Both the position numbers and the translations under genes were made by a program. Below are positions 3,861 through 59,600 of a DNA stretch of 64,000 bases, in pieces. The stretch comes from Morchella semilibera (taxonomy: Eukaryota; Ascomycota; Pezizomycetes; Pezizales; Morchellaceae), in contig CM018606.1 in the NCBI GenBank assembly GCA_009192285.1, forward strand, positions 2,284,081-2,348,080. The letters run 5' to 3'. Position 1 is the stretch's first letter. The number at the start of each line of letters is the position of its first letter. The notes below the pieces were generated by a model that was not told where the DNA came from, did no database searches, and was given only the letters and a program-made list of their open reading frames with translations.

Positions 3861-4484
3861 GGTCTTTGAATGGAGGCTTGATTTTAGAGAAATATGTGGT
3901 GAGGGCTATAGTTGGGGTTGATTGATGGATGAATGATTTGGTGGGGTAGGAATAGCAGAAGGGATGAAAGAAGCGGGGTGAAGAGGGGTATTTTAAAGTA
4001 GAGCTGGGGGAAGAGTGATGAGCAGATGTACCTACGTACGTGTTTGGGGAGTTTGGCACTGAACACCCAATACTGTAACTTAAGGGTAGCGAGATGCATG
4101 TATATGTGTTTGGATAGAGATCCCCACACTGCGTTCGATGATTCAATCGATGATGTGCATATACCAAGACAAAAACAAATTATAACACAGATGCGCATTC
4201 CAATTAATGATACACTTATGCCAATCAACACCACTTCGGGCAGAATCGGCCGCGCAGCAAATCGTGGCCGTGCACTCGATTAGTCAGGTAAATCTCTTAC
4301 TTTAATATAAAGTAAAAGCAACCAATTAGATGATTTGAGCCCGGGTAAGTAAGTCCAGTCTTAGACACGAGTCCCAGTACCTACTGTCAACAGACCCCCC
4401 CCGTAGTATACATGTAGCTACTAGCACGATATAGATTAGCTTAAAGATGGAAGCTGCGAATTTGAGCGCCCATTATCACTTTTA

Positions 4485-4672
4485 CAGTACGAAAAACGGG
4501 CGAAATCACTACTACCTAATAGGAATATCGAATTCTGTGAAGAAAACCGAATTGGACCGGCATTGGAGGAAGAATACTGTATCAATACCGTATACAGTTT
4601 TGCGTGACAAGTGGGCCTCCCTGCACCGCCGACAGCCGTTCTTAGCAAGTGACTGGTTTTTGTATGGTGAGC
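4485..4672. mobile_element. MITE, CAGTA-end family, degraded copy
   Basis: The left end reads TTA-CAGTACGAAAAACGGGC followed by GAAATCACTAC, matching the ends of the copies at 4.9, 16.7 and 17.5 kb. The internal part AGGAAGAATACTGTATCAA is also shared with the 4.9-kb copy. The right end is eroded and its position is approximate. It is too short to code for a transposase. Confidence 0.5.
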
Positions 4673-5058: not shown

Positions 5059-5203
5059 TTACATGTAGTACTATATATACATCGAATATTGCCCTAAATG
5101 AGTAGCTGATATGATCATTATATATACGTACCCTAAGTAAATGAAATACGGTCAAAACGATCTTATCCGAACTACTGCCTTAGATACGGAGTAGTCTATT
5201 GAT

Positions 5204-5449: not shown

Positions 5450-5857
5450 GATGATATGAGAAGAATATACATGTACATGTATGTTGATAACGACATGCGT
5501 AAGCGTACCTACATATATAAAATTTAACATTTGCCAGCTCCTCTTCGAATCACCCATCACGACGCTCCGTGTTTGCGGGCCCTAGTGGCCACTCATCTGC
5601 AGCCTCCTAACTCTTAAGATCTTGTAACTGGCGATGGGGGAATTTCATCTATAAGGCTAGGTAAAAGTTCCTCTGAGCGGGGGAGATAATTCTTGTTCGA
5701 CACACTTTCAATTAATCAACAGCTAATCTAAGATGCGGGTCTAGCTTAAGCTTAATTATAAAGGGCCATGACACCAACCAATCATTCAACTCAAAGCGAT
5801 ATCTCTATCAGTCTCCCAACTGAAACACAAAATCTAAGTTGTCCAGTACACTTATAT

Positions 5858-8969: not shown

Positions 8970-9054
8970 GATTATGGTTTTGAGGATGGATTGATCAATT
9001 GGTGGTATACGTAGGGATGCTCTGATGTTCTGGATACTCAGCGGCGGGGCAAAG

Positions 9055-9065: not shown

Positions 9066-9546
9066 TTTTGCCACCAATGCCTATTTGCTATGTTTCCAAT
9101 CGTTTCGAGCTAGGTATCAATGGTCCATCAGTGATTTTTGACATATATATCCAGCTGATGTGGCAAGGTTCCCCGCAAATCTGATCTACTACCAAGCTGT
9201 TTCGGCCTCCGAGGGTCAATTGGGCGGCCCGTACTGTACTAGCGGAGAGGTGGAACATTTCCAAAGCTTTGTCAGTTCCGCAAAGAATCGTGAAGAATCG
9301 AACAGTAAGTGCCCTACATTGGCGCACACATAATACATGTAGTTAGTGTGTTACAAATCAAATGCCCATCCCTGCATTTGCGCTTGTTCTGCCACTGCAG
9401 CACGGGCACTGAAAGTATTTCTCGGCCGAATGAGAATCGAATCTCGTATATCGAGGAGTCAAAGGCTCGGACTGATTACAATTAATTGAGATACGCGATA
9501 GATATTGTATATATGGTACCTACATACATACTTACATGTATACTTG

Positions 9547-9669
9547 CTCGTACTTTCCTGACGTTTGTAAAGGGGACCACTATTGCATACCATACTAAAT
9601 TTTGGGCTTGGCGCGTATTTGTATGGCATGCAGTAGCGGTCATTTTCATAAACGTCAGGAACATACGAG
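9547..9669. mobile_element. MITE, CTCGTA-end family, copy 1
   Basis: The left end CTCGTACTTTCCTGACGTTT pairs with the right end, reverse complement CTCGTATGTTCCTGACGTTT. The interior GGCGCGTATTTGTATGGCAT recurs in opposite orientation in the element at 43.82 kb. It is non-coding. Confidence 0.7.
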
Positions 9670-10041
9670 TACTAGCTACCTTGCCTACATGTAATTAATT
9701 AAGCGAGGAGATTGAATTTGTGGAACGTTGTGGAACCTTGATTAGATCGAATACGACAGAATACATGTAGAGAATACATGTACAAGTACTGTACTTATAT
9801 AGATTACAAATCAAACTAGCTGATATTCATACAAATCAAAATAAAGAGTAGGACACAATGGATATGAAACCTGCGAGCGTAAATCCCGTAGTTAAGGTAA
9901 ACAAAGTTACAGTCAATAGACCCGAAGGTGCATTGAGGCTTTGGACTAGCTAGCTGATTACATGTAACCAATCGGTGATGGCAATATTAAGTACATGTAA
10001 TATATCAAGTCTGAGCTGAAAAGGTCTTGGCCGAGACTCTT

Positions 10042-10208: not shown

Positions 10209-10555
10209 GAAGAATTACATGTAGTATCGATCTTTCAGTATGGGGGAAATAGTAGAGGCCTCACGGATCATATATCATGGTATACGTATTATCAGGTTAT
10301 ATATATATATACTAGGAATATACATGTATTATACAAAATCTATCTTTTTACATTTCAACAGCATGTAGAGAAATTCATGGAGCCGCACTGGGGAGTGGAA
10401 ACAATGTATACGCTGTAAAAGTAACAATCGATCTCAGTTCGTGATAATCGCCTGCAATGCAGTTATCTCACGTAAACTAGATGTATCGAGCAAAAGTTCC
10501 CAGCGGCCAACAGCTGCAGGTCATCAATGACACACCACTATGTTTTACAGATGAT

Positions 10556-10738: not shown

Positions 10739-10886
10739 GGATAACCATGTAGTTATCTGTTTCTATCAGGCGGGCACTACAAACCCCCTTGTCTGCTCCC
10801 GAAATCCACCATCCAGCCCATAGCGGTAATCTGAGCAATAATCGGAGATTGGAAGAGGAGTGACAATTAAAACTACATGTACCTTT

Positions 10887-10984: not shown

Positions 10985-11373
10985 GAGTAGCGGTTTCATA
11001 GTGAAACACGCTGAAGAGGGGTGGGGCATTTGAGATTTTGTTTTTTTGTGGTGTGGGTCAGCTTTGTGCCTTTGATTGGGCAAGATTTGCTACTGGTTTG
11101 GTTTGAACTCTATCATTGCAATTGATCTGCCCCGTAAACCGGTCGCCAAGAACCAAGTATTTCGGGGGTAGATACGTTGGTGGGAAAAATTAAAACGCTC
11201 TACCTTTGAGTGAGTTAGGGTTAGCTAGTAGACTTATTTGCATTATCGGTGCAATTAACTCTCAGTTTGCTGACCAATACTATATCTGATGATGAACCTC
11301 TCCAGGGATGTGTATAGTAATATATGAGTGCTTTTAATAATTCAATTGCCTCGTCCTAGCTTGTAGATACATG

Positions 11374-11460
11374 TACTACGGTGACAAGGGTAAGTGATTA
11401 GAACACGGCGGTGCGGTTTGCGTTGCTACGTTCTACTCACTTACCCTTGACACCGGAGTA
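11374..11460. mobile_element. short MITE, TA-flanked
   Basis: Left arm CGGTGACAAGGGTAAGTGAT; right arm in reverse complement CGGTGTCAAGGGTAAGTGAG. About 28 bp pair with a few mismatches around a 30-bp loop. TA lies at each edge. Confidence 0.65.
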
Positions 11461-11661
11461 CAGCGTTGTACTCTACTAATAAACTGTACGTTGTCGGAAA
11501 CCTCCAGGGAACTACATGTACTGGCCTGTTACAACTGGCAAGTTCTGGATAGACTTTCCCCTGCCTGGGTACATGTATATAACGTATATGTATACATTAT
11601 AATTACCGCCGGTGGTATAAGCACTGAATTTCAGCCCCCGCGCCACGTCTTTTTTTTTTTA

Positions 11662-11987
11662 ATAGAGCGTATTTACCAAGTGTCAAATTCAACAATTGAC
11701 ACTTTAAGAATGACGGTTGCGAGAGGCAAAATTGACATTTCCCCTCAGTTACCTAATTAACTACATCAGGAAGGATGATAGGAAAAACCCCATAGATAAA
11801 TAATTCTTCACGCTTACTGTGAAATACGCTGGATGGATATGAACTACACACAGTATAGTAAACATATCCAGGCGTATCCTACATCCCCCACCTGTGGGCC
11901 TAGTCAGAACTGACAGTTTCGGCAACCCACTTTTTAATATGGCAAAGTGTAAATTGTGGGTTTTGACACTTCGTAAATACGCTCTAA
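11662..11987. mobile_element. MITE of about 325 bp
   Basis: Left terminus AGAGCGTATTTACCAAGTGT then CAAA; right terminus in reverse complement AGAGCGTATTTACGAAGTGT then CAAA. There is one mismatch in about 24 bp and TA next to both ends. The interior contains a second, smaller inverted repeat (ACGCTGGATGGATATG against CATATCCAGGCGT). Open frames inside show no family signature. Confidence 0.65.
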
Positions 11988-12541
11988 TTCATACTTTCAT
12001 ACAGGGACTAAACAAAACCTATCCCCGCGCCACGCCGTCCTGGGTTAGTATAACATACATGTACCCCGGGGGTCCTCAAAGTGATGCAACGGCGACAAAA
12101 ACCACAAATTTCGTAGCTACTGGCCACCATGTCCAAAAGTTGAGAAGTAATTTATATATGTCCAATTGCATCAGGCGGAGCTATATAATAAATACATATA
12201 GTAAATGGAAATACAAATGGAAAAAATTGACTAGGTCTAGCTTTGATAGTGGTCGCGACACTAGAATATCGAGCCTGTTGCATGTAAGCGCCGTGAGGAA
12301 ACGTAGCGTTTAGCCATTACTACAGGTGTCCGCACCAATGTCATCTCTAGCTACTTAAGCAGTCTTTTGTCTTGTTTTCACTTATCATCTTCAAGAATAA
12401 TATCATCCCTTGGTCAGTCGAAGTTAGGACAGTCTTTAATTCGTATCATTCGACGAAGCAGAGACTGTACACAACAACCGGCCAACAATGCCCAAAACAA
12501 TATGGAGGTAAAAAAAAACTTGATTCAAATTTAACTACGGG

Positions 12542-15500
12542 CTATAATTTCCCAGCTGCTCCATGTACAAAAGTCCTTGTCGGGGCTGGTACCTTGGAAA
12601 CAGATGCCTTCTCGCCCTCCTTCTCGCCCTCCTTCTCGATTTTATCCTCAAACTCAGCCGTCAATGCCAGCTTCAGACTCATCCCGTAAAGGTTATCGGC
12701 GATGTCTAATGCCCTACCAGCATGTACAGCTGATTCCACGACCGGTGGCTCTTTGACATAGGGTCTATCCGCAACCTCGTCGAAGATGGTATTAAACGGC
12801 TCGTTGAGGTCCAGATTAAGCTTCTTGCAGCTTTTGTCGTTGTTGATACGGCAGTATATGAAACCCCTAATCTCGGGGTCCAAATCTTCTTCGTATCCCC
12901 TCTTGCGGAGTTCACCCAGGACGTTCAGGACGACGTCACATAGTCCATCTTTTCCGAGCTTAGGCTTGAAGGCACCCTTTCTGGATTCAAGGCGGCAGTC
13001 GTTGACGTAGATCTCCAACGGATCACTCATATGTCTCTTTCTCTGGCTTGCACAGAGATCCGTACGGTAGTACGATTGGTGAGTGTCCCAGATGCCCATA
13101 CTACGCCATACTTGCTCAGTCTCGTCTCCCCAGAAGCCACACGAACAGGGAAGGTTCTTCTTGGAAGTGCTAGAGCTAAGTTTGTCGAAGTGTCCAAAGT
13201 CACGGAGACCATTGTTCCAATTATGGCGCGAGATGCAGACAGGGATGGTGAAGACACCAGCGGCGGATGGGTCTGCGATGGTCTCGGGGGAGGGACGCTT
13301 GTCTAGGCTGACAAGAATAGAGGTGTCATCGTGCGCGCCGAGGTGGCTACGAACAGAGGAGGTTATGACATCCTGTGAGCCCGTTGGGTTAGTGGGGTGG
13401 GTTCAATAAAATTGGGGAGGGACATTCTACCCTGGGATTAACGCCCCAATCATCCTCCCAAGTATCACTTCCTGCAGGCCTCTCATTGTAGTGCCTAGTC
13501 TTATCTCCACGAGTGGCCCACTTGTACATGTAGCAAGCAAGCTCTACCGGTTCGTCTCCAAGCCCCCTGGCACGACTCTGCTCTGAGGTGAGAGTTATGC
13601 AAGACTTGAGGTCTGCAGGTCCGGTATTGTCCTTACTGCAGCTGCTAGCGGGGTCACCAGAGTTGTGGTGCGGCTTCTTGCGGCTTTGGTGGTCGTGGGT
13701 GCAGGTAATATAGACCTTTTGAGTCTTCAATGCGGAGTTCAAGGCCTTGTGGAAAATGTTTTTGGTGATTTTGCTGGAAGTTGTTAGTGTGGGAAAAGAA
13801 GGATGAGAAGGAGAAAGAATTACTTTTCAATATCATAGTGGGTGAATTCCTTGAGCATATGGCTGTTAGATGGTAGGTAAAGCCCAGTGGAGAGGACGAA
13901 CGAAAGCGTTGTTTCGCCTGTGAATATTCCACAGCGATTAGCATAAGGACAAATATACTACAGAGCATTTATTTCCGGGAAACAAACCCGAAGTACCGCA
14001 CTCAGAAGGATTCATCATCTCATCGTGTGCCCTTCTCAGCTGTGTCCTCGCCTGTCTTGTACTCTCTTGGATTCTGAGTGACAACCAAGCCAGATTAATA
14101 TCTTGTTTCGGGGCCTCATCTTCGGCCGCGAGCCAATCGTTGATCTCTAGTAGGACGGTCGGCAGCCATCCTACGAAAGCCTTGATTCCAACTCTCTTCG
14201 CATCATTCTTCAGTTTCCACATTTTTCTATCTGCTTCCTCCTTGAATTCCCTCATCGCCTTGATCCTATCATTCTCCTCCTGGTAGAGGCCCTTCCATGT
14301 GTACTCAGCGTGGGATGGCGGATGAGCTGGCCCGCCCTCCCTCTCGAACAGCTCTCCTTCGCGACGTTTCCATCCACAGCGAGTTAGACGGTCAAAGATG
14401 TTGTTATACCCGCCCTTCCACGCACTCCCGTCCGGTTGTTTCTCTGTCTCGCGCTCTGTACCTTTATACAGCCACCACCACTCTTCGCCAGAGTTGTACG
14501 TCCGTCCATAATATTCTTTTTCGCGGCTCCCGCGCATGCCAGTAGCGTGCGCATAGAAGCCGAGATGCTGCTGGGCCTCGAGAGTATCCTTGAGTTGTCC
14601 GGGCCACTCGTGCGCGTAGACGGCATCAAACATTATAGCGGTGCGTAGGAAGAGCCACGAGACATGTTCCATCTCGACACGGCGCGCTATATCGGTATCA
14701 AAGTGCTCAAGCTGCTTGTGGAGATTCTCGATCACTTGTACAAAGGGCACGAACGGCGTAAGGAGCTCCATGAGCTGGCCCATACCGGTGATGACCAGGT
14801 GCAGCATCAACTTGACATCATCGGCGTGCGTGTGACGCTTGGACCAGAAGAAGTCGAAAGCCATTTTTGGCGCCATTAGCCCAACGTTGCTTTGCGCATG
14901 TGTAAGTCCGGACTGGTGATAATGTATTTTTATTAGTATTCATTCTTTGAAATTGCCAAGAAATCTGGAAATGATCGGTATTGCAGGAAAATTTAAAAGA
15001 GTCAAGGGTGTGGTTTTCGAACTTACATGGATCAAATCGGTAACAGCAGTGAAATGTGCGACAGAAGTGAGGACAAAGTAGACGTTCCTCGCCTCCTCAA
15101 GATCCTCGATCGCCATAACGATCTCCTTGCAAGAGACTGTACAGCCCTGAGTATTTCCCACGCTACAACTCCAGCCCTCCTCACCCAGGTACCTATATGC
15201 CAATGACCCTATAAGCCCATGGGTCTGCCTAAGAAAGTCGCCACTCGTAGCAGCGGTGTATGTCTCGAGAAAATCGGAGGCACCAGACATGATCCAATTC
15301 TCAGGGCTGAGGTTGAAGAACTGGTTTTGACAGATAACAGAGGCCTCCGAGACAGTAAGCGGAGTGGTACGCCGTGGTGATGTAGGTAATATTAGGAGGT
15401 CCTTAAGGGGAGGGGGGTACGAGCGCGAAAATAGGCGGCGGGGAATGTAAACGGGGATATCAGTTCCGTTATTTCCGTTCTCACGATCCTCATTAGCTTT

Positions 15501-15665: not shown

Positions 15666-16738
15666 GTTTTCTGTGTGTAAGATGAGTGTTCAAAATGTGT
15701 GCTCTTGGGGGGGGGATTCTGGGCCTTTTTATCACTGCTAGCGCGGATGGTGCATGGCATTATTTGTGCGTTGAGGGGGGGGGGTTGTAACCCTCTCGCT
15801 ATCCCAAGGCCTCGGATTAGTGCGAGCAGATAGTCCGTCATTGCAGCCATTAATACTAGTTGATCATGAGTGCACAATTTTGTGGGATTGTGCGTGGAGA
15901 GCTAGAGGGGGTGTCCCAACTAGGATTGACTCCAAAGGGATTGACTCCAAAGGTATTGGTGGGATGTGTCATGATCCAAAAAGCGACGGAGAAAACTTAA
16001 AAATGCAAAAGTTTTGTCATGAAATGCATTCCTTGGAGATTCTAGATATTTAGGATAGATCATGGCCTGCCATTTCAGGAGTCGCCCGATAATCCGGAAA
16101 ATCCTCTGCCTGCAGCTACATGTAGTTAATATGAAATCTTCTCTCGAGTGGTACACATGCACACTCAACTTGGTCATATTGTGCCTAAAAGGCTGTAAGT
16201 TTTCAAGCAGATTTGGGCGGACATCACTACTTCATAGGTGTTGTAGCTTAATTGTTGTTAATGACTCGTCTCTATCTATCCTGATATATTAACCCTTTAT
16301 TCATGGTTTCATAACGTTTCCAGGCCCAAGTATATACTGATATTGCATGTAGACACAGGAAAAATCCGCTACTAAAGGGAGAGGTTAATACGGTAACAAT
16401 ACGTACTCTTTCTCTAATGCCGGTTTAATTCAACCCTGTGGTAGTGATCTCATCCCCCTTTTTCATTATACTATAATATGTAAACTACTTACCTTGACTA
16501 GCAGAAATGGTTCTTGGTGATGATGGACAAGCTTATACTAGTTACTTATTTAGAAAAAGATGTAATGACGCCACCGCTACCACCGCCCCACTCACACCCA
16601 TTTGATTGACTCTTTTACTAACTACATGTAGTATATCAGTAGCTATGAATTAAATATAAGCTATATGTATATACTACTACGCGCGTACTAATGTCCGTCT
16701 GTGATAATCATACCCAAACTCGAATCAGGGAGGAAGGT

Positions 16739-19769: not shown

Positions 19770-21640
19770 TGTAGGTATATTATGTGGGTAGATATACAAC
19801 TTATGCAGATTATTTAGTTAATGAATTCTTTTGGTTGTATCAATAACGATTCTCTTCTGGTGTAATAGAGAACTATATTCACTGGCATTTATATCTATTC
19901 AGTCCAATCCATTACTACATATATTTACTTTCAGCCCCTGTGAACTCAAAACTCATACACAAAACATTATATGGCATAAACACCCCAAAGTCGGCGTATC
20001 CGGTCCATCATGAGTTCCGACTCGAGCCTGAGGCCACTCACAAAATCTCACTCGACCCAGATTCCGCTCGGTCAGGGTTAGGGTTAATAATGTATCCAGG
20101 ATCAATACATCCAACAGGTATGATAGACCAACGTATGATAACTCCCCCGAGTAACGTATCCCACTGTGTGCCCATACTTTGGTTTTGTATGTGGGGCGGT
20201 GTTGGAAACAGCGGGGGTGGTTAGTAGTTCATAATTAGTGCAGGATAGAATTGATATTAGCCTCCTTGGCCACCTATTCACCGCCCTGCTGGGGGAGCTG
20301 TAGGCCCTGGTCGCTGTAGTATTACTGGCTCTCCCCCTGCCCTGTATACCGCCCAGTTTGCGGACCCGCTGGCGCGGAGGAGCCCGCTGGTGGTATTCTT
20401 TATGAGAGGAGGATATATAACAATGGGAAAGAACCACGAGCAGGGTGGTATATAACTATCTTTGAAACTTATATAGATATCCTCAGACAGGTTTGTGACA
20501 CAGCGCACGGGTACGTGGCGAAGATCGGGTACCCGCCGAAACGGCAGGCCTAATTCGTCTACCCGCTCACTCTTGTCTATCGGGGTTGTCGTGAAGAACG
20601 TCCTGGTTCTTTTGTGCCTAGTCTAAGCTATGCTAAACCAATGTTTTGCGGATGCCGTTGTTTCATGAATACTCGTTTCTGAGCTTTGGATTCTACATGT
20701 ATGTTCCCTGGTCTGAAGCGTTATGTTCCGGGTTCATCTATACCTCAAAGTAGGACGTTATTTCACTGCCAATCCCCGTAACTGGGCGCCCGAAAAGCTA
20801 TAGCTAATCCAACGAAAGTGCATAAAATGTAGAGAATCGATGATACATCCGTTTCCTCTGGTTACGAGAAAAATCAGAACTCCCGCGGGACAAAATGCTT
20901 GTGATGAGTTGAGTACCGTCCCTCATGAGCGAACTTTGCTATTGTGTCGATTATTCCCACCGTTGTTTCCACCAGGGCTTGAGCTGGATTGTCATAGCGT
21001 CCTAGCCACATGATGCCACCGTACCGGCCGTTGTTCTCTAATGATATAAAAACAGAACTTAATGTATACTTGTAAGTACAATAAGAACCTCATGCTCATG
21101 AGATATCTTATCGGATCCATATCGCATCATTAATCCCTAGTTCTGTACATATGTTTGAGGGGTCTGCCGAAGCTACTGGTCCCATCTGATCTTTTTTTCT
21201 TTGAGCTTAGGTAAGTAGGATAGCCCTCCTGTTTTATTGTCCTTGCCGCCCGAATTCATAATGGCCGGCTGGTTGAACTCCTAATAACATACATATCGGT
21301 TATTGTAACAGAACAATTCCAGACTTGGACGGTATCCATAATCCACAACTTGATAATGATACACTTTTGTATATATTGGCTCTTCGTGTTTAGAGTATTC
21401 CTTTAACCGGGTTTCCGTAAATGGGGATATGTAGGGCTACTAAAGTATGTAGTACTCTGGTTAGGCCACCACCGTGCTTTATAAGCCTTTTGTATGCCCT
21501 CCATGACGAGTCCCCCTCCGATATCATGACAGGTCGTGATCTTGATTTGACTAAAGCATCCGAAAGCCGCTATCTGGCCACTACCGTCGCAATAGCCAAG
21601 GCCGAATGTAATTTCGCCGACAAGGTCCCTGGCTCCAGAG
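19770..21640. other. intergenic region
   Basis: About 1.9 kb with no supported gene. A telomere-like GGGTTAGGGTTA occurs near 20077. No inverted-repeat element was recognised here. Confidence 0.5.
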
Positions 21641-21641
21641 A

Positions 21642-22425: not shown

Positions 22426-23990
22426 TTTGTCCCTTCAACTCTTTATATGTATTAGTTAATTTTCTAACATTATTTCCCGTAAAGCTTATCGATTTTCTCG
22501 GTGGTTTGTCGGGCCGTGCTAGGCCTCGAGTATTTCTTCCTGGTCAAGGGGTCTGTGGAGAGGGTAGTCTCGACTTCTCTCTCGGCCTCCTCTTGGGGCT
22601 TTTGTTTTCTTTTTTTATTTCTTGATACATGTGTCTAGCTTCCTTGCGGGAAGGCAAACGTGGCCTGCCCATTTATTGGGTCGGCTTGGTGAGCGGGCTC
22701 TTTGGCCCAATACAATTTTCTCTTGCTTCTTCTCTCGATTGTTCACGTGATTCCCGTCTGCCAAAATGTGAAATATATCGTGACCCTCGTGAAGAGTGTT
22801 GCTAGCAATCTCCCGGAGAGTAATACTACGTAATTCAGTGTTGATATCTCCTACAGCCAACATTAGCCATGAATTTAATCATTCTCCCTCCATATATTAC
22901 GACAGGTCCTCGCGAGCACTTGTTAAATATATGAAGCCCTTATGAATAGCTTTCCAACACCAGCAATGCTGGTCTCTAGAACGAGCCGGGTACTTTGTGG
23001 AGAGGCTGTCCGCGATAGAAACATCAGCCCGCACCGTCCTGGTACTGTGCCAGAAATCGAGCACCCCCTGTAGATTAGCTTTTCTCCCGCCCAAAAACCC
23101 CGCGCCACGGTATAGACAGAGAGCTACCTATTTATCAACAACGTCGAAACCACTCAACCGTAAAGAGGACTACCTAAATCCTCAGAGAAACCTCGCACAC
23201 AAACAGAATCCGGCCGTTGTTCACCCTAGCTTTGTGGCATATAATCCCTCAGTCAGCATATTGTTAGAGCAGTCCACACAACACAACCAACCAACCAAGA
23301 CGTAGGGAAAAGAAAACCTCTCCTAGGACACCGCCTCCAACAGTCTCTCCCGGAACGGCAGCCACAGTAAAGGGCAAGAACATAGAGGGGTTCCAGCCCC
23401 AAAAGGCGGGGTAAAGCTCCCCGCAAACACCTTGCTGTAACAATCCCTACACACCCGCGTTAGCACGGCTGTCTCATTCCAACCCGGAATGTGGGAGAAC
23501 TGTGGCTGCGGCTGTCTTGATATCAAGAACGGAGATGGAGAAGGAATAGGGTATCGAGACTGGATTGGTGATGGTGATGGTGATGGAATGTGTACCCCCC
23601 CCTCCCCTCCTACTACATGTGGTAGTGGGGAAAGGTGCGTGTGCTGAGTAATGTAATACGGGCTTGGGCTCGGGGTTGGGGGCGGGATGGTGCATACATA
23701 CATGTACATACATGATGGGCCAGGCGCTGTCATCTCCCCGTGGTGTAGTGTAGTGGGTGTTGGTGGGGTGTGGTGTGGTGTTTGTAAGTGGGTGGGTGGG
23801 GTGGGGCAGGGCAGGGCAGGGCGGGCGGGCACTACCGGGTGCGACATGAGATATCACTCGAGCGTCTCTACGGAACTACAGCAAGTACCAAATACCAAAT
23901 ATCAATTTAAAGACTCTACGATACACACATCCAACCCAACAAATGAAAGCAAACAAATACAGCGGGCACCCTCCATCCCGATCCACCCAA
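22426..23990. other. intergenic region with low complexity
   Basis: About 1.6 kb downstream of the hydroxylase-like gene. It is rich in G-run and GGTGATGGTGATG-type simple sequence near 23565-23590 and GGGTGGGTGGGG near 23790. Open frames here are low-complexity and unsupported. Confidence 0.5.
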
Positions 23991-35112: not shown

Positions 35113-37735
35113 TTTATGTTACGAGGGGGGCGGATGTATTAAGATCGATCGATCGTAGAAGATCTTATGGGAGATGATGTGAATGTATGTACGCGGGAAG
35201 GCAGTACAGCACAGATAGATAAACAGAAATGTATGGTTATTAAGAGCTGAGGGCTTGGGATAGGATAGAAATGAAGTGAGTGTTTGGTTGTGGGGTTGTC
35301 GTGTGTAGAGGAAAAGAAGTTATGGAGGGGTGGTGTGTATGTAAGTAAGTTCAAGTAACAGTAGCGTGTGGCCAAGGACGTTGAGTTTGTGGAAGGGGTC
35401 TTTTTTTTTTCTTCTTTTCTTATAGAGCCCAGTAGGGAAATCTTGGGGTTGGGGGAGCTGGAGATGAAAAAAAAAGTGGTTCCTGCAGCGTTTGCTACGC
35501 TCTGCTAAGGCTGCGTGTTCTTGCTTTCTTGCAGTGAGTTGTCTGCTGTGTGCAAGGATTTCAGTCTGAAAAATCAGAAAAAGACTTACAGCTACTTGGT
35601 ATCTGGTTGGTATGTAGGTATGCGGTTCAACTTCGAACGGAAGAAGAAGAGGGTAGAGATCAAATAGAAGAAGGGATAGGGGTGATAGATGCTGCAGACT
35701 ATTTAGCTGCTGCTTCTCTGTTTTTTTCTGCTTCTACTTACGCGTTATTCAACGAAACGGGTGAAGCTGATAGAGATGAGGTGGTGAAAATCAGAAACCC
35801 CCCTGCACCGTTGGAACTCAAGTGAGGTGGTCAAGTCGAGCAAAAAAATGAGGGAAGAGAGCCGCGTCGCGTGGCTACATGCTTCACCTCACCTCAATTT
35901 AGGTAGTTCTCATTCTCATTTTATTTCTCTCTTCAACGCAACAAATATATCTAGATTTGGAAACAACATCATGTTATGACATCAAAGCTCATTATAATAT
36001 CATGGTCATCTAGATTCTAGCTTCCATCATCTCGCTGTCATGTCTGTCAGTCTTGTTTCATATACCCCAACTCCTTCTTTCCCCCTCCCCCTTCCGAAAC
36101 GCAACGGTTTCCTGGCAGCGGTTAAAATACGCAAGTATGGTATTCCCAATGGGACCTGGCATGGGCCCGGGTTTTTATTTACGCAGCTTCATCTTTCTGC
36201 GTGTGCTCCTAAAACCCGATATAACGGTAGAATTGCAGCGGGTAACCATGATATTCAGCCTCTATCTGAACTTTCCTTCCGAGCAGGAAGACTAAATTCA
36301 ATGGATTGCATGATGATATGACGCCCTGGGTGAAAGAGAAGAGACTTCTATCCACTACTTCTAACCTCTTTGCCATGAACGAGCCACACCAAAACTCCGA
36401 CCTCGGGTGCATTCGGCATCTCTAGAAGCTTTGGTATTCTGTAGATCAAAACCGGATCTTAATACTAGTGTACCCGTGGAAATCCGTCATCGGGCTACGC
36501 ACACATCCCACTTTGTGAGACCATGAATTGGTGTGGTGGTGTGACATCTGTTTTACGGATATAACATCGTTTAATGTAGCACTTTTTATGTAGCCTGGAC
36601 ATGGACTGTATTGTGATCACTCAGTGAAAGTGGTTTAAATAGGTTCTTAAAAACTTTATGTTTCCCAATCGTCTTCATAAACAATCAAACGTGAAAATGG
36701 GAACAAATGCCTTCCATAATCACCTATACTATTGGCAGAGTTGTGAATTACACACCCGAAGCCTTTGTCGCCCGAGAAAGGCGCTAGCGGTGAGCAGAGG
36801 TGGCCCCGGAGATCACAAGTCGATGCCTGGAGTACGTAGTCTGAATCGAAACAACACTCCCCCGGAGACTTCTACTTGCTCTGGAAGGTTTCAGCCTCGT
36901 TATCCCAGGCCAATGAAATCGTGCTTTCGATGCCACATTCAGCTTGATATTCATTTGACACATCTACCCATCACGATATTGAATTTCTGTGTCCAAGTAA
37001 GATTGCAGCAGACAAATTAAGAATATATCATTTGTCTAGGGTATCAAAGTAGTGGTATAACCTCAGGGCATCTCGCCATCTGAACAAACTGGTACAGATG
37101 GACATGCTTATCTGCATCCTTGCCTGTTTATCTACATGTAGGCCCTTGCTTTGTTGTATATAGGTTGAATGAGTCCAAAGCCATCGGCTAACGCATGCTC
37201 CAGCATCATCGGCTTCCTCGTGGATGAGCTGATGAGATCCCCTAGGTGCAAGTAGTTTGCCTGTCCTCTCAGTTTCTAGATACCGGCCATGCAGACTTGA
37301 ACTCTCCAAACAGCGAAATCGCGGGGGGTGAGAGAAAGCATACTAATTCGTCACATGATATGGACACTATCAGCGAGCTTAGCCATTGATAAAACACGAA
37401 CGTCATGGAATTGAGAGGAAAACTACGAAGGTAAACTTAATTTCTATTTCTACTCCCCAGAGTTAATAATTTTATTCTGCAGTTGTAGAATGAACCAAAT
37501 CCCTGCATAGTGAGCCAGGGTTTAGCCACACCTTGTCATCCGTCTTGGCCGTTCCTCGCCCTAGCAGGTCTTGGCTTGAAGATGTGCAAATTCGAAACCG
37601 AGTGATCACTCATGAACTAATCACAGATGTAGGATAAGGATATCGCTAAGAATTAATTATTCTACATAACAAAGGAACTACTCAACGCATAAAAACCATT
37701 ATGACTACAAGAAGAAAAAAACCCTACTCTCGAAC
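35113..37735. other. intergenic region
   Basis: About 2.6 kb with the promoter of the hypothetical gene at its left and the 3' flank of the catalase at its right. No coding region, RNA or inverted-repeat element was recognised, apart from a TACATGTA near 37134. Confidence 0.5.
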
Positions 37736-40432: not shown

Positions 40433-41424
40433 CTATACCATCTTAACTCACTCTGCACCTTATTGGGTGGGTGGGACAATGGGGGGGGAGGAACTCTAGC
40501 CCATTGGGGCTTCAGTGCACCAAGGGTGGGATGATGGTCCGCCTGCAGGTGAGCCATACTCTACACCACTGACTCGTAGGCTCCCCTTCCTTGCCAACTA
40601 ATGAGGGCAGATGGATTTCTCAGCCCAGACTGTCTAAAACGACTCTTACACAAAATTAATACAGCCCTAGCTTATGAGCTTGCTTCTGTGATGTCTCTAC
40701 TGCCGATTAATCTGGCGGCCAAGGCGTGATCGGTTGATAGGATGCACCCGTCTAGAATTCCAGCTGCTGTAATCATCCAGCTTGGTATCTTACAGACGTA
40801 ATACGTCCCATGTACTGTATGCACGAAGAAAAAAAAGGAACTACATGTAGTACTAATCTCCTAGCTATCGAGGTTTGTAATACCATAGGAGGCCTGACAC
40901 GGAATGGCCGATTTAATGTGATGAAAATAAAAGTGGATACTCACCTTGATAACATCCATAGGTTATGAAAACTATGTGGCTGAGAAAGCATCCATATTCT
41001 AGACTCTAGCTTACGTTGAATGAGTTGTCTACAACCCCCCATAATCCGGTATCAAAAAAGTGGTCCCCTTGTTAAAAATAAGGGTCTTGGCAGCTAGGAC
41101 GTTGCAGCCCATGACGATCTTGGCGTTGACCTTGTCTACTTTACATGTACTTTATTCTAACTAGATTACATAAATGTACTCTTACTGCAACCCGGGAAAA
41201 TCGATGTCAAATTAACCTGCTAGGAACATGATGCGTACATGTATTCACTGAAACTAATATTCACGCCAAGAAGCACATATCTGCAGGCACAAATCCGTAC
41301 ACACACCCCGATCGAGTGGCACAGCGGACGGAACTCCCCCCCTGTGTAGTGTTATACAACCCCGCCAATTGATGGATTATCTTCACACTTTGTTATTTAT
41401 ACTCTGTTTTAGAGTATGTCTGTT

Positions 41425-41543: not shown

Positions 41544-43689
41544 TCCGGATCCCACCCCCCCCCCCCCTCTCCCCCAGCTGGCCAGATAAGCTCCTAGCTA
41601 CTCCTCCTTTATATACCCTACTCTCTCAATATCGCCCGTGCTGGCTTTCCGAGTGACGTTCCTGCCCCACAACACACTTAAAGCACTCTAGGGAGGCCTG
41701 GGTACCTTTATGTTCCACTCCTAATTCATACGGTCGATGCACCTCCACCGCTTACGGCAAGGTACCCGGAAAAACTAACAGGTTCAACCGACAACTCCAG
41801 TTACTAATCTTGAACAGTCTGGAACACGCTTGGTTATAAACATCAAATTCACCAACCACCTTCCAAAGATTTTCTGCCAAGTAACACCATCAACCGGCTT
41901 CCCTATTGGTGCCCTTCATGTCGTCACCAATAAGAATCTCGGTATTAGTATGACATTTTAATATGGCTGATTGGTACCTTTTCTCCCGAAGCGATGAATC
42001 GTGGATGTGTGCACTCAGGATTCGGGGAAAATTAAAAAAAAAAAAAAAAAGGATTCTTTTCTTCTTTCCCGAAGGCTTTCATCCCAAATTGGGAAAGCAA
42101 ACTTACATCGAGGCTGAGGAAAAACAAAAAAACATAAACAAAGGATCCCTAGACCATAATGGTGGAGGCAGCAGCTCAAGGCTGAGGATAAACAATCTGC
42201 AATTGCAAATGACGTCTACCTCCCAAAATGTAAATTCTGGCCCCCCTATCTACTCAGCATAAGTACATGTATGCAATTGCAGTTGCCCTTGGGCTTACGC
42301 GTGCATGTCGTTACGTTCAGATACATATCCGGCTAGCGGGGCTCTCTCTACAGGGTTCACAGATCCATCCTTCTGAAACATAACGGAGCTTAAAATACAA
42401 TTACCTACATCAATAACGTGACATGAGCGTGACCGCACCCCAATCGCGTAATAAAGCACCAATAGCGCCTGGATCATCGATATGTGCGTTGTTATTGTTG
42501 CAGAGCGGGAAAGGGACCTCATCGACCGTCGAACATTCAAAATAAGGATAACCTGCACGTACACATGACCAGTACTCTACACTCTTCCTAGATGAATGTA
42601 GCAGGTTGCCCCTTTAAAGCGCCAAAAAAAAGGAACCAGGGACGAAAAGCAAAAAAAAAAAAACTCAAAATCGTTCCAGCGCCAGGTTTGATGCAAAAAA
42701 GAACAGAGCAATAGTTAGGGGGGCAAGACGGAAAGCAACCAATCAGACGGCTAAGATTTTGACCTCTTTGAGCCCGGGCTGTTCTTTATGGTAAACTAGT
42801 AAATTGTCATATCTATTGTCTCGCTTTGGTATTGACCGTGTTGTTGCCAACCCCTGAGGTACAGCATGTAGCTTCTTGTTAGAGCGACTACCTGGGAGGG
42901 AAACATATTGGCTGATCTTACGTACTTGTGGGCGCGATTGATCTCGCTCATTATTCGCATATCTGGGGTAATAGGTAGAGTATTATGGTACTTACAGCTG
43001 ACCCTAACATAAGCGGCATAATATCACGATGAGAGGTGGTACGTCGGGACTCGCTTGTGGGGATAGGTAAGGCATTAGATTGCCCATGTACTGGACCTGG
43101 AATTTTAGCTGGAATTGTGGTGGGATAAAGTTCAGATAAAAGAATGTTCGCTTTGTTTTTTTTATGGGAATATTTCTACGAAGCAGTTTTTAAGACATCA
43201 GTGCTAGTGGCCTAAATATAACTGCTAACTTGACTCGCCATGAGCTCTTCAATACTTATTCTCAATCGGCGCCTTGCAGCTGTACTTGGGGTCTGTCGCT
43301 CGACTTTTCAGTGCATGATACATACTTAACTGCTTAACATCTTGAGGGAAATCGAAAGTACAAACCGCGATGCTTAAACCTTACTGCGGTTGAGTTTCTG
43401 GTATTTGCCCACGTATCTTCCTGTACGATGCAGGAAAATAAGTTTTCTGCATCCGTTCTACAAACGATCGAAAACCCGGATTTAAACGGAACGGGGCCAG
43501 GTAAGTATGTACACTGTACAGTTATGAACCTAGGGCTTGGGAGTGAGTAGTAGATGTTTTTGACACATAAATGATTGACTAGCAATTATACGATTGTCAA
43601 TTACTCAACACATGCGTCCTGACAGCATGCCAAAGATCGTAAGGCCCCCACCATGTGGTAATACAATTAGTATCGAGCCTTGAAATAAA

Positions 43690-44824: not shown

Positions 44825-44829
44825 ACGAG

Positions 44830-46806
44830 ATGTGGGGAAGTATCGAGGGGCAATAATGACGTCTCGGACTTAGAGCTCTATGGACTTAAGCGTTTCCATC
44901 CTCTCGGCCGGATAGACATATCAGCTCAGGAGAGCTATAGTACGAATTAGATTAACAGTCCCCAATGTAAAAGACTTGCGAGCTTTGAAACCTCGAGAGC
45001 CTAAACCCATAGATATCAGCCATCACGAAACCACCTAAACCCTAACCCTTAGTGCGCAGTTGCTTGGTGAGTGATAATCTATGATCTGTAAGTCTCCCAA
45101 CTGTGCAAATCGAATCTTCTGGTCTCGTCTCGTCTTTTCCAAGAGATATGTAAGGGGAGTTGTGACAATCTTCGCCGTACCTGCATTGCTCCGTTACATC
45201 ATGTGCCTTGCCTCGAGGATGCGGGTGGTTGGTGCGGAGCAAAGCTTGTTTCTGTCGCGCAATCGATTCTCCCTTGGCCGTACGTGTCGCACCTAGACAA
45301 CAACTCACCACCTACTCTATGCGACCCATTACCGCCCTCTGGAAATGAGTTTGATTCTCCTTTTCCCCCTTACCGATACCTACTTTAACGCCGGATCGGA
45401 TATTCCTATAAGCCTTAGTCAAGGGTTAGTCTAATAAAGGCCTTATATATTCCTCAAATCACTCTTAAAAATGCTTGAATAAGGTCTTTATTAGACTAAC
45501 TTTTCACTAAGCCCTTTTTAAGGCTGAAATCAGGCCCATAGGAATATCCGACCGGGCGTTAAAGTACGTCTCTCAGCCGAGTTAAATGACGTTTTACTAT
45601 ACATCCCCCCTCAGATCCCCTGTTACACGCTGCTTGTCTCTTTCCGGCATGTTCCAGTTTCGTCCGAGCATCTGCGTGCTTATCGTTTCATGGGAACCAG
45701 CGCTATATATAGCTCATACACATGCACACTTATTCTACGTGGTGGAGTGTCCGCCTTTTAGCCGAGCGAGAGTATTCATCGCGAAAGGGATAAGGTTTCA
45801 GTGACAGCTGCAATTCTAGGCACCCCGAGAGATTGAATATCTAGGTTAGGTACTCGGAGGAAAGTATTCGTGAGTTTTTCACTTTTTGTTACCTACGAGC
45901 CTGGAAGTTTTGTATATGTGGGGGTTCGGTTGTCGCTTTTAGCGTAACTACGTGACAATTATTACCATGTTAGGTGGAAGGCTCAGGAAGGATTCCAAGT
46001 CACGGCTTTCATCCAGCCGTGAAAGTGGGTGCCGGATTTGCAGATCAGCACTGATCGTCGTTAGGAGCACATGTGTCCTCCCTCGCCTTGGGGGAAATTT
46101 CAGAACGGCATCCACGGCACTGCAAGGTGGATATTCTACGGCAGAGTCTGTAGAACATGTAAAGCATGGCCGACACTAAATTATGACACGTAAAGAAGCT
46201 AGCAAATATCCTAAGGATACATATTATTGTGTGGACCTATCAATAAACACCCGAGTCTGAGGATCTGACCACTCGCTTTCGCGTCGGACCGCTCAATGAT
46301 GGTCTTAAGTAAGAACCTACCAGCTGAACACCCCCCCCGGGCACCAGCTGGGGTGCAATTGGCGATTCTTAAGTTCGAATGCGGTTGATGCATGCACTTC
46401 AATAGCCCTGCGACAGCTTGGGCTCAAAACTCTGACATTGGTATCCTTTCTGTCGTGGTCATGTCATTTAATTGACTCTGAGAAATTTTTTGGTCTTCAC
46501 CTCTCCTTGTTTTGTTTTTTGGATCACCGAAGGTCACTCGATATGGTCGAGCATGTGGGTCATCATAACGTGGTTCGGGCTACATGTACTTTCAAACCAA
46601 TCAACCAAAACTCCAAACACCATGCATTGTGGCGCACTGCATTGCCCTATGCTCACACCCCCTTATCAAAAAGTGGGGTCATATATACAGCTAACCAAAA
46701 AAAGAAAGAAAGAAGGAAAGAAATAGAAAGAAATGAATAAAAAGAACAGAATCTATAATAACGCCGCGTCATCGGTCATCGGCCTGCATAATTAATTTTC
46801 TTGGGA
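44830..46806. other. intergenic region
   Basis: About 2 kb with a telomere-like AAACCCTAACCCTTAG near 45023 and a strong MITE at 45381-45565. No gene is supported. Confidence 0.5.
45381..45565. mobile_element. MITE, 185 bp, long hairpin
   Basis: It is bounded by TA and has termini CTTTAACGCCGGATCGGATA (left) and, in reverse complement, CTTTAACGCCCGGTCGGATA (right), followed by TTCCTAT in both. A second inverted pair inside (TTAGTCTAATAAAGGCC against GGTCTTTATTAGACTAA) makes nearly the whole element self-complementary. Confidence 0.8.
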
Positions 46807-53035: not shown

Positions 53036-54937
53036 TTTGACGAAATAAATTGAAAAACAGGTTTTTGGTTGGTAAAACCCGGAAGCCAAGGAGTGGTGAG
53101 TGATGGGTTATGACTGAAACAAATTGGTTTTGTTCCAGTCAAGTGCAGGGAAAAGACAAAAGAAAAAAGGTTGACTAGATAGGAAAAGCAGGAAATAAAT
53201 TAGAGAAAGTTCATTGATGAACGAGGGAAAGGCAAAGACCTACACCGTGAGTGTGGAACCAACTAACTAAGCCGGCGCTGTGATGGAGTCCAACACCGGG
53301 CCGAGTCAGAGTAACTGGGCCTTAAAGACAGTACTTATGTTAAGTTAAATAGAATGAATGATACGAATTTTGAAAAAGAGAGGTAAATAAAAGGAAGGGA
53401 CCGGATCGACTGATAGGAGAAGATGGTGAGGATGGAGGATGGAGAAGGATTGTGGTGATGGAGGAAGAGGCGATGGAGGGGGGGAAAGAACGAAGGTGGT
53501 TGAGAGAAGAAACAAAAAAGAGACGACGACGAATGAGTGAGGAACACCGCAACAGCAAAGTTTTTGTGTAGGGCAGCGTGTAGTGCTGGGTGAGCTTGGT
53601 GGGGTAGTAAGGGAAGGCAGGCCCTGGCGGCACCGGCGAATATACACTCACCAAAAACCACTGCTGGACTTCTATGTTAACATTTCATCGTGGGCAAGAC
53701 TGGCACAACTAGCTAGGCAGTATAGCGAGTAATAACCCATGAAATCGATCAATATATTGGATAGCAGGGGAAATGAGTTGTGTTCGTGGCGTCGTGTTTC
53801 TTTGGCCTCAATTTGCACTTATTGGCTCAAATTGATGTTAACTACAGGTACGTCTTTTGCCAACCCACTTGATCCTACTCCACACCATCCGCAAATATGA
53901 AAGTAGATAGATATCAGGGCCTAAGAGGCGACAGGATAGACTACTATACCCCTTCGAGGCCTACTGAGCTGAATCTCTGAGCTCATCGTTTTAAGCCACC
54001 ACCACTACTAGCTCAAAAACAAATCAATTGATAAATCACTCGCCTTTCATTCCAATGCCAGTTCTATACAGCAGTAAGTGGCATTCGGGACCTTTTCCTA
54101 TCAATCAGGAACGACGGGCCTGTCCAAGATCCAGCAGAGATAACTGTGAAGGGCGACTTTGCAAGACCTCCGTCCCAGCGCAGCGGGGTATAAAGGAACC
54201 ATCCAAATACATGTAATCATCCACTGGCTTAAATATCATGTCATCAAATATTAGGAATCTTCCGGGTCTAAACCCAAACCGCACCCGCTACTAATCTCTC
54301 CTGTAGACGAAAGCGGGAAGGCGGGCACCTAATACTTCGCTCACGCTAGAGAGCTACAAACTTTCCCAGCCGTGTGCATCAACGTCATTAATCGGGGACG
54401 AGAGTTAAAGTCCTGTATTTAAATTACGCACTCTAAGGACAAAAGCGGAAGGAGCATTAAATGGTATATTTGGTATATGATTGAATCTGACCGAATTCTT
54501 TTCAACTGCTGAGAAAGAGATCGAGTGTGGATGTTTGAGATTCAAGTGACTATCGTTAAAAATAAGAATAAAAAATATGTACCTTGAAAGGCAATGATAC
54601 AAAGTAAAGAATTTAGTAAAGACTAGAGTGAAGACAAACAAAGTTTTTAAAAAAAATAAAAAAAAATAAGCCCGACCAAAGAGAATATTTATGTAGAAGA
54701 TTCCAGCCCATAAGCACAAAACATAGGAAACGAAAACCATATACAAATTTGCCGCCTCCCAATTGAAAAAAAAACCACAAACACCCACACCATACCCTAT
54801 ATCAGTTACCGCAATATCAAGCAAGAAACAAAGTTAACCTCCCAAACAGAACTGCAAAAGAAACACATCCCAAACCGCAAAACAAACGCCAGCCATCCAC
54901 CCAGATCTTCAGACCCCTAGCTATCCAGTCAAAAATT
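53036..54937. other. intergenic region, 5' leader of the ARID gene and 3' flank of the kinase-like gene
   Basis: About 1.9 kb. The part next to the ARID gene is purine-rich on the plus strand (pyrimidine-rich on the coding strand), typical of a fungal leader. 54.4-54.9 kb is A-rich, the probable 3' UTR of the kinase-like gene. No RNA gene was found. Confidence 0.5.
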
Positions 54938-56659: not shown

Positions 56660-59600
56660 CGTGAGGGCAGCAATAAGAGGGAGCGAGGTACAGGCCCTTA
56701 TACTGGAGGTGAATAAAGGGTCCTCTTGCTCCCTGAATTTTGACTAGAGTAGTCCTTCTGCTAATTGCTCAACTTGGATGGGGATCGGTTTAGTTCGCCA
56801 CCAGGCTGGGAAAAGCGCGGGATATTTTTTGCACTTTGGAATGTGACCACATGTGGGGCCCGTGAAACATTTTAGGACCTCCCCGAAAAAATAGTCCCCC
56901 CCAGTGGCCCGAGGCTGTCCAAATGGAGGTTTGAAGTACGTACATACAGCAAAAACGTTGTGTCCCGGGGGGGGGGGGGGGGTGGCAGGGCGGGCAGGCA
57001 CAGACAGGCAGGGCGGTTTGAGAAGAGATCAGATCAAATGGTAAGAGGTACATGTATGTACATGAAAAAAAAACCAGCCTAGGTGACTAGGATTTGTCCT
57101 TCCAAGGCTTGCTCCGTCGATGACATGAGTAACCTTTGCCGTCGGCAACCTTGTCTGTCGCATGTCTTATTGCCATAGCTTCCTTGGCTTCTCTGATAGG
57201 ATGTATGGAAGAATAGGAAACTGGTAATCTGGTAGATGTCGTACTTCTAAAACATCATGGGGCTGTTTCTCGCGCGCTCCAAGATAGATTGATATCTGGG
57301 ATTCCTACTTGTAATTGATAGGATATCTGTAACCTACAGATATATGTCATACATACCATCATTTCTGGTATCGAAATTAGATGGCATGGCAAAAAAAGGG
57401 TGTGATGATAGTATGTAGCTACCAAAGTCGAGTTACCCACACAACCTATCAAAATTCCTCGTTTATCAAAAATTAGGGTGCCATCATGCCACGCGAGCTG
57501 CGCATAATTCCCAAGGAACAACCGAGAATGAGGGGTTCATGGTTAATGGGATGGCCTACGTCTTTAGTGCCCCTGCTTTTTCCCTTCCATGATTCAATTC
57601 TCTTCCCCATTCTCTTCCCAGTTCTCTCGCTTAAGATATCATTCTCGCGATAAGGAAACAAAGGGGCGACGGAGAAGCACCTTCTCTATCCCACCCAGAT
57701 ATCGCTTGAGTCTCTAGCCTCCTTCTCACCACTGCCCTACTCTGCCATGCTATGCCCTGCCCTGCCATGCCATGCTATGCCCTGCACTGCACTGCACTGC
57801 ATGGAATGTAGAGTAGAGCAGGCGGACTTGGTCCCGGGCTGGTAAACGAGATGCGAGAAAGACCGTCGAGTCAGTGTGGTACAGACAAGGAGAGAATTAA
57901 AGAAAGTGAAGGGTTATTTGCCAGCGCGATAGGATAGCTAGCTGTGGCTTGCTGCCTAGAGATTTTTCATCTCTGGAAGCGGCTATTACCGTTGGCTGTT
58001 GCACCACCAACGGCGAGCCCTTCCCTCTTCATGTGATGGCCGTTCTACAGTACAGGGGGTTCGATGCGACCCCCCACGGAGTACCCAATCAATCTCCACA
58101 AGTCCAATCGATCATCAGCTTATTCCTCCTCCGGCCCAGTTTTTGAGGGATAATTTTGTACCTAGATTGTTCATGGTTCACCTACTAAAGTACAGTACTG
58201 ACCAGGTATGTATTGACAATCATGCCAAACCAATTAAACCCTACCCTAATCTTTTCCTGTTTATGATGTTCCGGCATTCCCCAGTAGAAAAAATCGATCT
58301 ACTCTATATAAACTAACTCTAGTCAAGTAGGTCATATCTGATAGCCATATGTGATGAGATGTACCAGCCTAAACGGAAGATCCGTTCATAAATTTAACTT
58401 GTATCTAACTCAGCCTCAATAACAAGTACTTTCTCTGCTCAATAAGCCTATAACAGACAATCCCTGGGCTATATAACCAGAATCCCTCGGAAATTTACTT
58501 TCTGGCTCAGTTCTGGCTCCTGTCCAGCGGTGCATCGTGTCCCGCCCATACATAGTTGAGAATTGTACTATCCGTGGACAGACTTTTTTCCTCGAGAGGC
58601 GTTCGTTGTTGAATTTGCCCTCGCGGCAAAGGCGTTTCTTTTGCATCCTCTTACGGAGCCCTGTGACACAACAGTAACACTCTGGGGGGTACACTGACAC
58701 TGATGAGCAACCTACATCGATGCATCTCATCGATTGCGAACCTTTTTGCAAAAAAATTGCTGTGGGGGCCCGCCGTCACCAAATCACAGACCCTTCCCTT
58801 CCGCAGGGAGGGACCCTGCGCTAAACTGCAAACCACGCCTTCGGGTCCTGTTATCTTTTTCGAACCTCTTTCGGCCCGGGGGTTGAGAAGGATGATCAAC
58901 TTGCCAAATAAAAATCACTAATAATTACCCGGAGGGCCTAGCTTGTTGGCATTCTATATCGAGAGTGCTGCCCGACGGATCGGGTTTGTGCGAGTCTCCC
59001 CCGTACCGCATGCATGTAAGGTATTCTCACTCGGCCCAGAACGGGGGGACGTCAACAATGAACTGGGTTGCGGGTGCTCTAGAACTCGTTGCTGGAGAAT
59101 ACAGTAAGCAACATATACATGATTCTAACTGGATATGTTTGTAGCTAATGAGACATGCATCCGTAGTAGCTACTTTGTACCTACACCCATACGGTCCAGA
59201 GTACATTTCAAGTACCTAAGGAGTATCCCAAGTGGAGACTTAACTGGAGATCGACTCCGTGAGCAGAGTTCTCATACATGGCTTGCTCTCCAGCCTCAGC
59301 ATTGGGCACAACCACGTATACAAATACCTGGCTAGAATCTTGATCTACTGAAATTAATCGGTCGATCCCTGTAATTTCTTTACTTGCCTACTTACTTAAT
59401 CCCATTATATTTTACTGTTTTAGTTTCCAGAGGAACGTGTAAACCAATCTAAAGCCGTAAGGATCTTGAAAAATTCATTAGTAAGGCAGGACTCAGTTCA
59501 CAATACCTCACTCATGTCCAGGTTGCCTTTACAACAGGTATAACCCTTCTCGGACAGGGCAGCTTTGTTTTTCTTCCGGAAACCCGGATTTCGACGAGAA

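Follow-up and report, generated by a model that had tools for sequence, protein, structure and literature searches.

The stretch analysed here (the window: 64,000 nucleotides of Morchella semilibera, assembly GCA_009192285.1, contig CM018606.1, positions 2,284,081 to 2,348,080) raises the question of why a single palindromic octamer, TACATGTA, should occur in it as 37 exact matches, the first starting at 4409 and the last ending at 57056. According to the data reported below, most copies of TACATGTA are probably excision footprints, that is, scars left by DNA transposons of the cut-and-paste type with TA as their insertion site.

A sequence-only reading of the window had counted about 37 copies and described the octamer as hugely over-represented; our exact count agrees, with positions differing by no more than 5 bases. 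It had also stated that base composition predicts one or two copies, and indeed dinucleotide shuffles of the window contain 0.92 on average and 4 at most (none out of 100 attains 37), while an order-2 Markov model predicts 1.27, corresponding to a 29-fold excess. Among the palindromic octamers of the window, the runner-up by ratio is CGGCGCCG (4 copies versus 0.47 expected at order 2) and the runner-up by count is TATATATA (15 versus 2.26). The comparison with a Markov background was then extended to the genome: the whole assembly (56,756,124 bases, 23 contigs) harbors 22,206 copies, one per 2.6 kb, versus 3,723 copies of the reversed word ATGTACAT. A sample of 200 kb (sequences L001-L020, from five contigs and excluding the window) contains 75 copies versus 3.7 expected at order 2 (150 versus 7.3 counting both strands), from which a genome-wide excess of about 20-fold over the order-2 model is extrapolated. 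The density is strongly uneven, with 20 sites in 10 kb in L019, 12 in L013, and none in L001, L007, L009, L012, and L022. Moreover, the sites cluster: 42 neighbour distances are of 8-200 bp, whereas 1000 permutations, drawn from the non-coding TAs inside 10 kb blocks, give 22 on average and never more than 35.

The way in which the octamer arises was seen directly in a few cases, in which TACATGTA was made by a 6-bp insertion at a TA. Several inverted-repeat elements of the window recur elsewhere in the genome, and one of them, a miniature inverted-repeat transposable element (MITE) referred to as MITE A, provided a test bed. The MITE A copy in L044 reads GGATACATGTATGG where six other copies read GGATATGA, a TA having gained exactly 6 bp; the copy in L075 shows an exact 6-bp gain at a different TA. 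In the alignments, the first place (L044:301) is a TA in 15 of 17 sequences and the second (L075:264) in 13 of 16, with ATGTA in L070, as if a full scar had lost three bases. The third case is TACATGTA at L019:4797, which differs by exactly 6 bp from a TA at window 12232-12233, in sequences with 77-81% overall identity. These are the three clear cases from a search in which 163 sites with enough flank, both as they stand and with the 6 bp removed, were compared with all the other sequence fetched, leaving out the duplicates L025, L047, and L084. Any two-sided match was obtained at only 15 of the 163 sites, in line with the varied flanks reported by the sequence-only reading. The three clear cases are independent and lie in repeats, and in each of them an ancestral TA has gained exactly 6 bp by insertion; no clear origin by substitution was seen among the 163 sites probed. 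In L105 and L107, two young copies of one transposon, TACATGTA is common by descent.

The positions in the window are as follows; each numbered site is an exact match of TACATGTA, with no strand assigned.

4409..4416, site 1
5060..5067, site 2
5468..5481, sites 3-4, overlapping doublet TACATGTACATGTA
9334..9341, site 5
9533..9540, site 6, a few bases off MITE C (9547-9669)
9686..9693, site 7
9762..9769, site 8
9775..9782, site 9
9959..9966, site 10
9992..9999, site 11
10216..10223, site 12
10321..10328, site 13
10874..10881, site 14
11368..11375, site 15, which shares its right TA with the border of MITE E
11372-11404 and 11430-11462, inverted arms of MITE E
11513..11520, site 16
11570..11577, site 17
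11661..11988, plus strand, MITE A copy, test bed for insertion; it reads TA at the places where the L044 and L075 copies have gained 6 bp to give TACATGTA
12056..12063, site 18; L019 has a TACATGTA, at 4716, beside a related stretch (40-bp match)
12232..12233, no strand, empty site TA; TACATGTA in the related copy L019:4797
13525..13532, site 19, within an open minus-strand frame (13392-13826)
16117..16124, site 20
16623..16630, site 21
20694..20701, site 22
23699..23706, site 23
28800..28807, site 24
29189..29202, sites 25-26, overlapping doublet
29408..29415, site 27
33054..33061, site 28
33196..33203, site 29
37133..37140, site 30
40842..40849, site 31
41142..41149, site 32
41236..41243, site 33
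42264..42271, site 34
46581..46588, site 35
54208..54215, site 36
57049..57056, site 37

If the inserted bases came from an element ending in CA...TG and cut two nucleotides inside its ends, only the word with XY = CA should be strongly raised among the 16 self-complementary words of the form TA-XY-Y'X'-TA. The census agrees with this expectation (this and the counts for shorter products, one-mismatch neighbours, clustering, coding split, gene edges, and site pairs refer to the window plus L001-L024, L025 being omitted as a duplicate of L024). In 195 kb of non-coding DNA, XY = CA has 125 sites versus 4.3 expected; the microsatellite word TATATATA has 67 versus 12, and the other 14 words have 0-7 sites each, with none above 2.6 times its expectation. 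Furthermore, both shorter products predicted from CA...TG ends are raised: TACATA/TATGTA occurs 307 times versus 150 (about 2-fold), second to TATATA among the TA-NN-TA words, and TACAGTA/TACTGTA occurs 50 times versus 28 (about 1.8-fold), the top TA-NNN-TA word by score. The interpretation of the 6-bp insertion as a transposon scar is thus well supported, by its form together with the word census. As for the age of the copies, the one-mismatch neighbours of TACATGTA (12 words, or 24 neighbours on both strands) number 175 versus 95 expected, mostly owing to TATATGTA and TGCATGTA; these counts bear out neither a pure young burst nor a steady decay of the octamer.

A possible route to the octamer can be depicted as follows. 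Insertion of the element would duplicate the TA, giving TA-element-TA; a cut two nucleotides inside the 5' ends of a CA...TG-ended element would leave CA and TG on the flanking TAs, and end joining would then produce TA-CA-TG-TA, so that a TA would turn into TACATGTA with a net gain of 6 bp. Excision as the cause of the insertion, the two-nucleotide overhang, and the identity of the donor are what we infer from the data. Repeat visits to the same TA would give the doublet TACATGTACATGTA, which accounts for 501 of the 22,206 sites genome-wide (2.3%), while 0.9% of non-coding TAs in the sample are followed by CATGTA. Such scars would be tolerated in non-coding DNA, and not in genes or their immediate flanks. 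The flanks of TACATGTA are symmetric, with TA at +3/+4 in 28.5% of 256 flanks versus 11.6% at non-coding TAs, and in this they look like a transposase target; the same TA is found beside CA-ended elements in 25 of 91 flanks, but beside MITEs A, B, and C in only 13 of 96.

Which elements could have left the scars? Among the TA-bordered inverted repeats of the sample there is one repeated family starting with CA, consisting of MITEs of about 100 bp of the form TA/CAGCGGTGGGTAATAAGT.../TA (CAGCGG ends). In the genome, TA/CAGCGGTGGGTAATAAG ends number 365 at up to 3 mismatches, versus 15 for the reversed word. A dead copy of 1.4 kb (L048), with a perfect terminal inverted repeat (TIR) of 27 bp, or 30 bp with the GTA border, carries a broken Tc1-type transposase with HTH_Tnp_Tc3_2 (helix-turn-helix) and DDE_3 domains. 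Two full-length Tc1 elements of about 1.7 kb, L105 (C2:3680500-3682700) and L107 (C9:245500-247600), have a stop-free frame of 361 amino acids; that of L105 has HTH_Tnp_Tc3_2 and DDE_3, and its residues 133-361 match Sleeping Beauty (PDB 5cr4) with an E value of 1e-34. The CAGCGG elements therefore have the TA border, the TIRs, the Tc1-type helix-turn-helix, and the DDE_3 transposase of Tc1 members, and their terminal bases are the same CA/TG retained in the scar. The Tc1 element itself also ends in CA...TG. Judging from these sequences, the genome has a suitable machine, a predicted Tc1-type transposase, with fitting ends. In some other Tc1-like copies (L108, L109, and L111), the TIR was not found in the fetched stretch. 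The donor would be this CA-ended Tc1/impala-like family (full copies of about 1.4-1.7 kb and MITEs of about 100 bp) or a now-rare relative with a different target preference; alternatively, the main donor would be a different CA-ended element, now rare. Fot1-like DDE_1 transposases give 96 matches in the genome, and a CA-ended pogo element among them may also have been the donor.

The borders of MITE A (window 11661-11988, copies L040-L045) seem to be AAT/ATT duplications of 3 bp rather than TA, and MITE A probably belongs to a superfamily different from that of the CAGCGG MITEs. As a separate observation, TA-bordered MITEs often adjoin TACATGTA or share its TA (window 9533 and 11368; L031, L034, L061, L063, and L087).

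Several observations weigh against excision of CA-ended elements as the source of most copies. Those CA-ended elements that survive occupy GTAC/ATGTACAT targets, having C at the outward +1 position in 86% and A at +2 in 56% of the 91 CAGCGG ends counted (24 more fuzzy matches without TA having been dropped), whereas the flanks of TACATGTA have C at +1 in 25% and T at +2 in 41%. Given this mismatch, the surviving elements could be the main donor only if scars were selectively formed or retained at other targets; the CAGCGG MITEs were accordingly rejected as a simple donor, since their ends fit and their +1/+2 flanks do not. We can conjecture that a four-base pairing between the broken ends at GTAC would allow clean resealing, in which case the scars retained would lie mostly at targets other than GTAC. 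Moreover, the ratio of about 22,000 sites to a few hundred detected CA-ended elements is very high. A limited search revealed no locus at which one copy has the element and another has TACATGTA: two guessed places in the contig pair C21/C22 gave no alignment for filled and empty alleles, and, out of 22 joined-flank probes built, the first 9, which were searched, gave no filled/empty pair across the junction. A footprint of two nucleotides was found in 0 of 2 repeat copies that are 4 bp longer than expected; L112 and L113 have 4-bp insertions that are neither TATGTA nor TACATA, and L114 and L115 are without TACATGTA. In the insertion search only three cases are clear, two of them from one MITE family; 10 of the 15 matched sites are weak or at element edges, with the best match obtained with the 6 bp removed in 5 and kept in 7 (some both). 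Finally, the TA at +3/+4 is also frequent beside TACATACA (27.0%), TATATA (21.5%), and TGTACA (21.4%), the values for MITE A in the MITE control are influenced by its own AAT border, and the excess of TACATA may be partly due to microsatellites.

The relation of the sites to genes was analysed with gene calls and coding scores from a home-made hexamer model trained on long frames, without annotation. The DNA scored as coding (98.7 kb) has 2 of the 128 sites (0.02 per kb) and the rest (205 kb) has 126 (0.61 per kb), which upholds the earlier statement that the copies lie between genes. The same reading had placed one copy (13525) in a coding exon. On the minus strand, an open frame of 145 codons (13392-13826, reading ...CYMYK...) runs through the site, which makes an exon possible, but the hexamer model did not score the site as coding. 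Within this frame, 13525-13532 is read as Tyr-Met-Tyr, and the reading would not be shifted by a gain of 6 bp. In the first 250 bp beside the edges of 73 gene-like clusters there are 6 sites in 31.5 kb (0.19 per kb), evenly split between the two gene sides (3 in 15.7 kb and 3 in 15.8 kb), and beyond 250 bp the density is mostly greater. Convergent intergenic regions have 14 sites in 19.3 kb (0.73 per kb), tandem ones 41 in 68.8 kb (0.60 per kb), and divergent ones 11 in 22.0 kb (0.50 per kb).

These data bear on the possibility that TACATGTA is a selected site for a transcription factor or an architectural protein, e.g., an Irx-like TALE homeodomain or another factor reading CATG. Irx proteins reportedly prefer TACATGTA, and in Phytophthora the octamer correlates with infection-stage expression, according to the account given in PMC3520976. 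A strong preference for the exact octamer is also what such a site would show, 7 of the 12 one-mismatch words being below 1.6 times their expectation, with the other 5 at 2 to 5 times. However, no upstream enrichment was found (among the 73 gene-like clusters, with the home-made model and small counts), and the lack of upstream bias, the depletion on both sides of genes, and a density in divergent regions not greater than in convergent ones argue against a promoter site. In addition, all three clear cases arose by 6-bp insertion, and a genome search made with Homeobox_KN and no other homeobox model gave a single match, which reads NWFINARRRR, with Ile preceding the conserved Asn. In Irx this position is occupied by Ala. 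The binding-site interpretation, including the architectural protein proposed by the sequence-only reading, is therefore unlikely.

Three further origins can be considered. Neutral growth similar to that of microsatellites, by slippage or short-repeat mutation of TACA, ATGT, or TACATG units, would account for TACATACA, TACATATA, and CATGCATG being raised as well, for some copies of TACATGTA lying within such runs, and for the 6-bp doublets; nevertheless, many flanks are non-repetitive, the three inserted copies arose at a single ancestral TA without a TACA/ATGT run, and the 29-fold excess in non-coding DNA exceeds that of TACATACA (48 versus 10), so that we regard this origin as quite improbable. 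As regards an insertion preference, 5 of the 91 CAGCGG ends adjoin TACATGTA, the surviving elements favour TACAT beside the border, and MITE E and MITE C copies adjoin the octamer, as they would if TACATGTA were chiefly a preferred insertion target and not a product. A preference, however, creates neither a 20-fold genome-wide excess nor 6-bp insertions, and 0 of 96 ends of MITEs A, B, and C share a TA with TACATGTA; this explanation thus appears very hard to sustain. The preferred-target and mutation-driven readings proposed earlier were nonetheless near the mark, in that a 6-bp insertion event and transposon-like traffic at TA are involved, the octamer being mostly the product and not the target.

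A different 6-bp micro-insertion is less easily set aside, even if we still consider it rather unlikely: it could stem from a different activity that cuts at TA, e.g., a domesticated transposase, or from an element with self-annealing CATG 3' overhangs, instead of the CAGCGG Tc1 family. Such an origin would be consistent with a product this exact, with sites greatly outnumbering elements, and with the difference between the flanks of TACATGTA and the targets of surviving CAGCGG insertions. On the other hand, only 1 of the 54 TA-bordered inverted-repeat hits in 304 kb starts with CATG, and this (window 16117-16630) merely consists of two TACATGTA sites. Pairs of sites also give no indication of bounding resident elements: in 256 pairs separated by 60-2500 bp, the flanks are equally alike inward and outward (mean similarity 4.21/16 and 4.22, respectively, versus 4.29 for random ones), while Tc1-type elements with fitting ends do occur in the genome.

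Some side observations concern the assembly and the remainder of the window. Contigs C9 and C10 are identical across the 9,952 bp compared, and C12/C13 and C21/C22 seem to be paired, judging from matched hits; paired contigs inflate the raw count of TACATGTA and leave its density unaffected. The region C23:1501-4000 repeats window 10820-12716 in reverse at 99% identity, with 1-2 bp differences bunched near 11737-11870. A second allele at the start of C23 was rejected, given the 99% identity, in favour of an assembly overlap; this repeat and the contig pairs look like assembly redundancy and base-calling errors. Other palindromes raised in the 200 kb and non-coding samples are CATGCATG/TGCATGCA and CTAGCTAG. 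The region 26000-28100 of the window has about 70% G+C, a strong AT skew, and long open frames on both strands with repetitive translations, and in an Rfam scan of the window nothing reaches the gathering score.

In cyanobacteria, HIP1 is likewise a lone palindromic octamer in vast excess throughout a genome; HIP1 is not known as an inserted scar, whereas TACATGTA is here non-coding and inserted. The sequence-only reading knew of no described role for the octamer, and in this respect it has to be corrected, because TACATGTA corresponds to motif-1 (PMC3520976) and M93 (PMC3597505) of Phytophthora and is reported as an Irx site and as a rare Tc1 footprint (PMC3520976). The last of these is taCATGta, described as a rare Tc1 excision footprint in Caenorhabditis elegans (Eide and Anderson 1988, as cited in PMC3520976). 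It has the same eight letters at a TA target; it is cited as rare, whereas in this fungal genome the octamer, with about 22,000 copies, dominates the spectrum. Footprints of Tc1/mariner elements are given as 2-4 bp in PMC7913693, whose own element leaves 0-3. A similar fungal system is impala/mimp of Fusarium, in which, as here, TA-bordered MITEs are mobilised by a Tc1-type transposase (PMC3599309); the TIR CAGCGGTGGGTAATAAG differs from that of impala/mimp, and the MITEs are about 100 bp long here versus 200-220 for mimps. The mimp inverted-repeat pattern ends in ...CCCACTG, and in 150 of its 158 matches a TA comes next. The main text of PMC3599309 does not contain the word footprint (0 occurrences), and no report of an excess of TACATGTA in a fungus was recognised in a full-text literature search, in which most of the matching papers were not looked at.

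In Phytophthora, motif-1 is TACATGTA and lies upstream of 12,070 genes (PMC3520976), and M93, again TACATGTA, is reported alongside M94, which is TACCGGTA (PMC3597505). The palindrome is thus the same and is likewise very abundant, in that case upstream of genes, where these accounts interpret it as a transcription-factor site. In treating motif-1, PMC3520976 mentions the Tc1 footprint but dismisses it on account of how abundant and conserved the motif is. M94 likewise has the form TA-XY-Y'X'-TA, so that both Phytophthora palindromes have the form that a footprint would have.

If excision is indeed the source of the copies, the count of the octamer would be a census of past excisions, independent of the copies that survive, and palindromes emerging from promoter searches, such as Phytophthora motif-1, may be transposon scars. 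Scars could be recognised as 6-bp insertions at TA among repeat copies or strains, a test that can be repeated in Phytophthora. In a wider and more tentative scenario, which we put forward as possible rather than probable, a TA-cutting transposase, either of Tc1 type or domesticated, may have cut and resealed this genome tens of thousands of times, every visit being recorded as a countable 6-bp scar while few elements survived, and similar scars in Phytophthora (TACATGTA and, from CC-ended elements, TACCGGTA) may have been read as promoter motifs.

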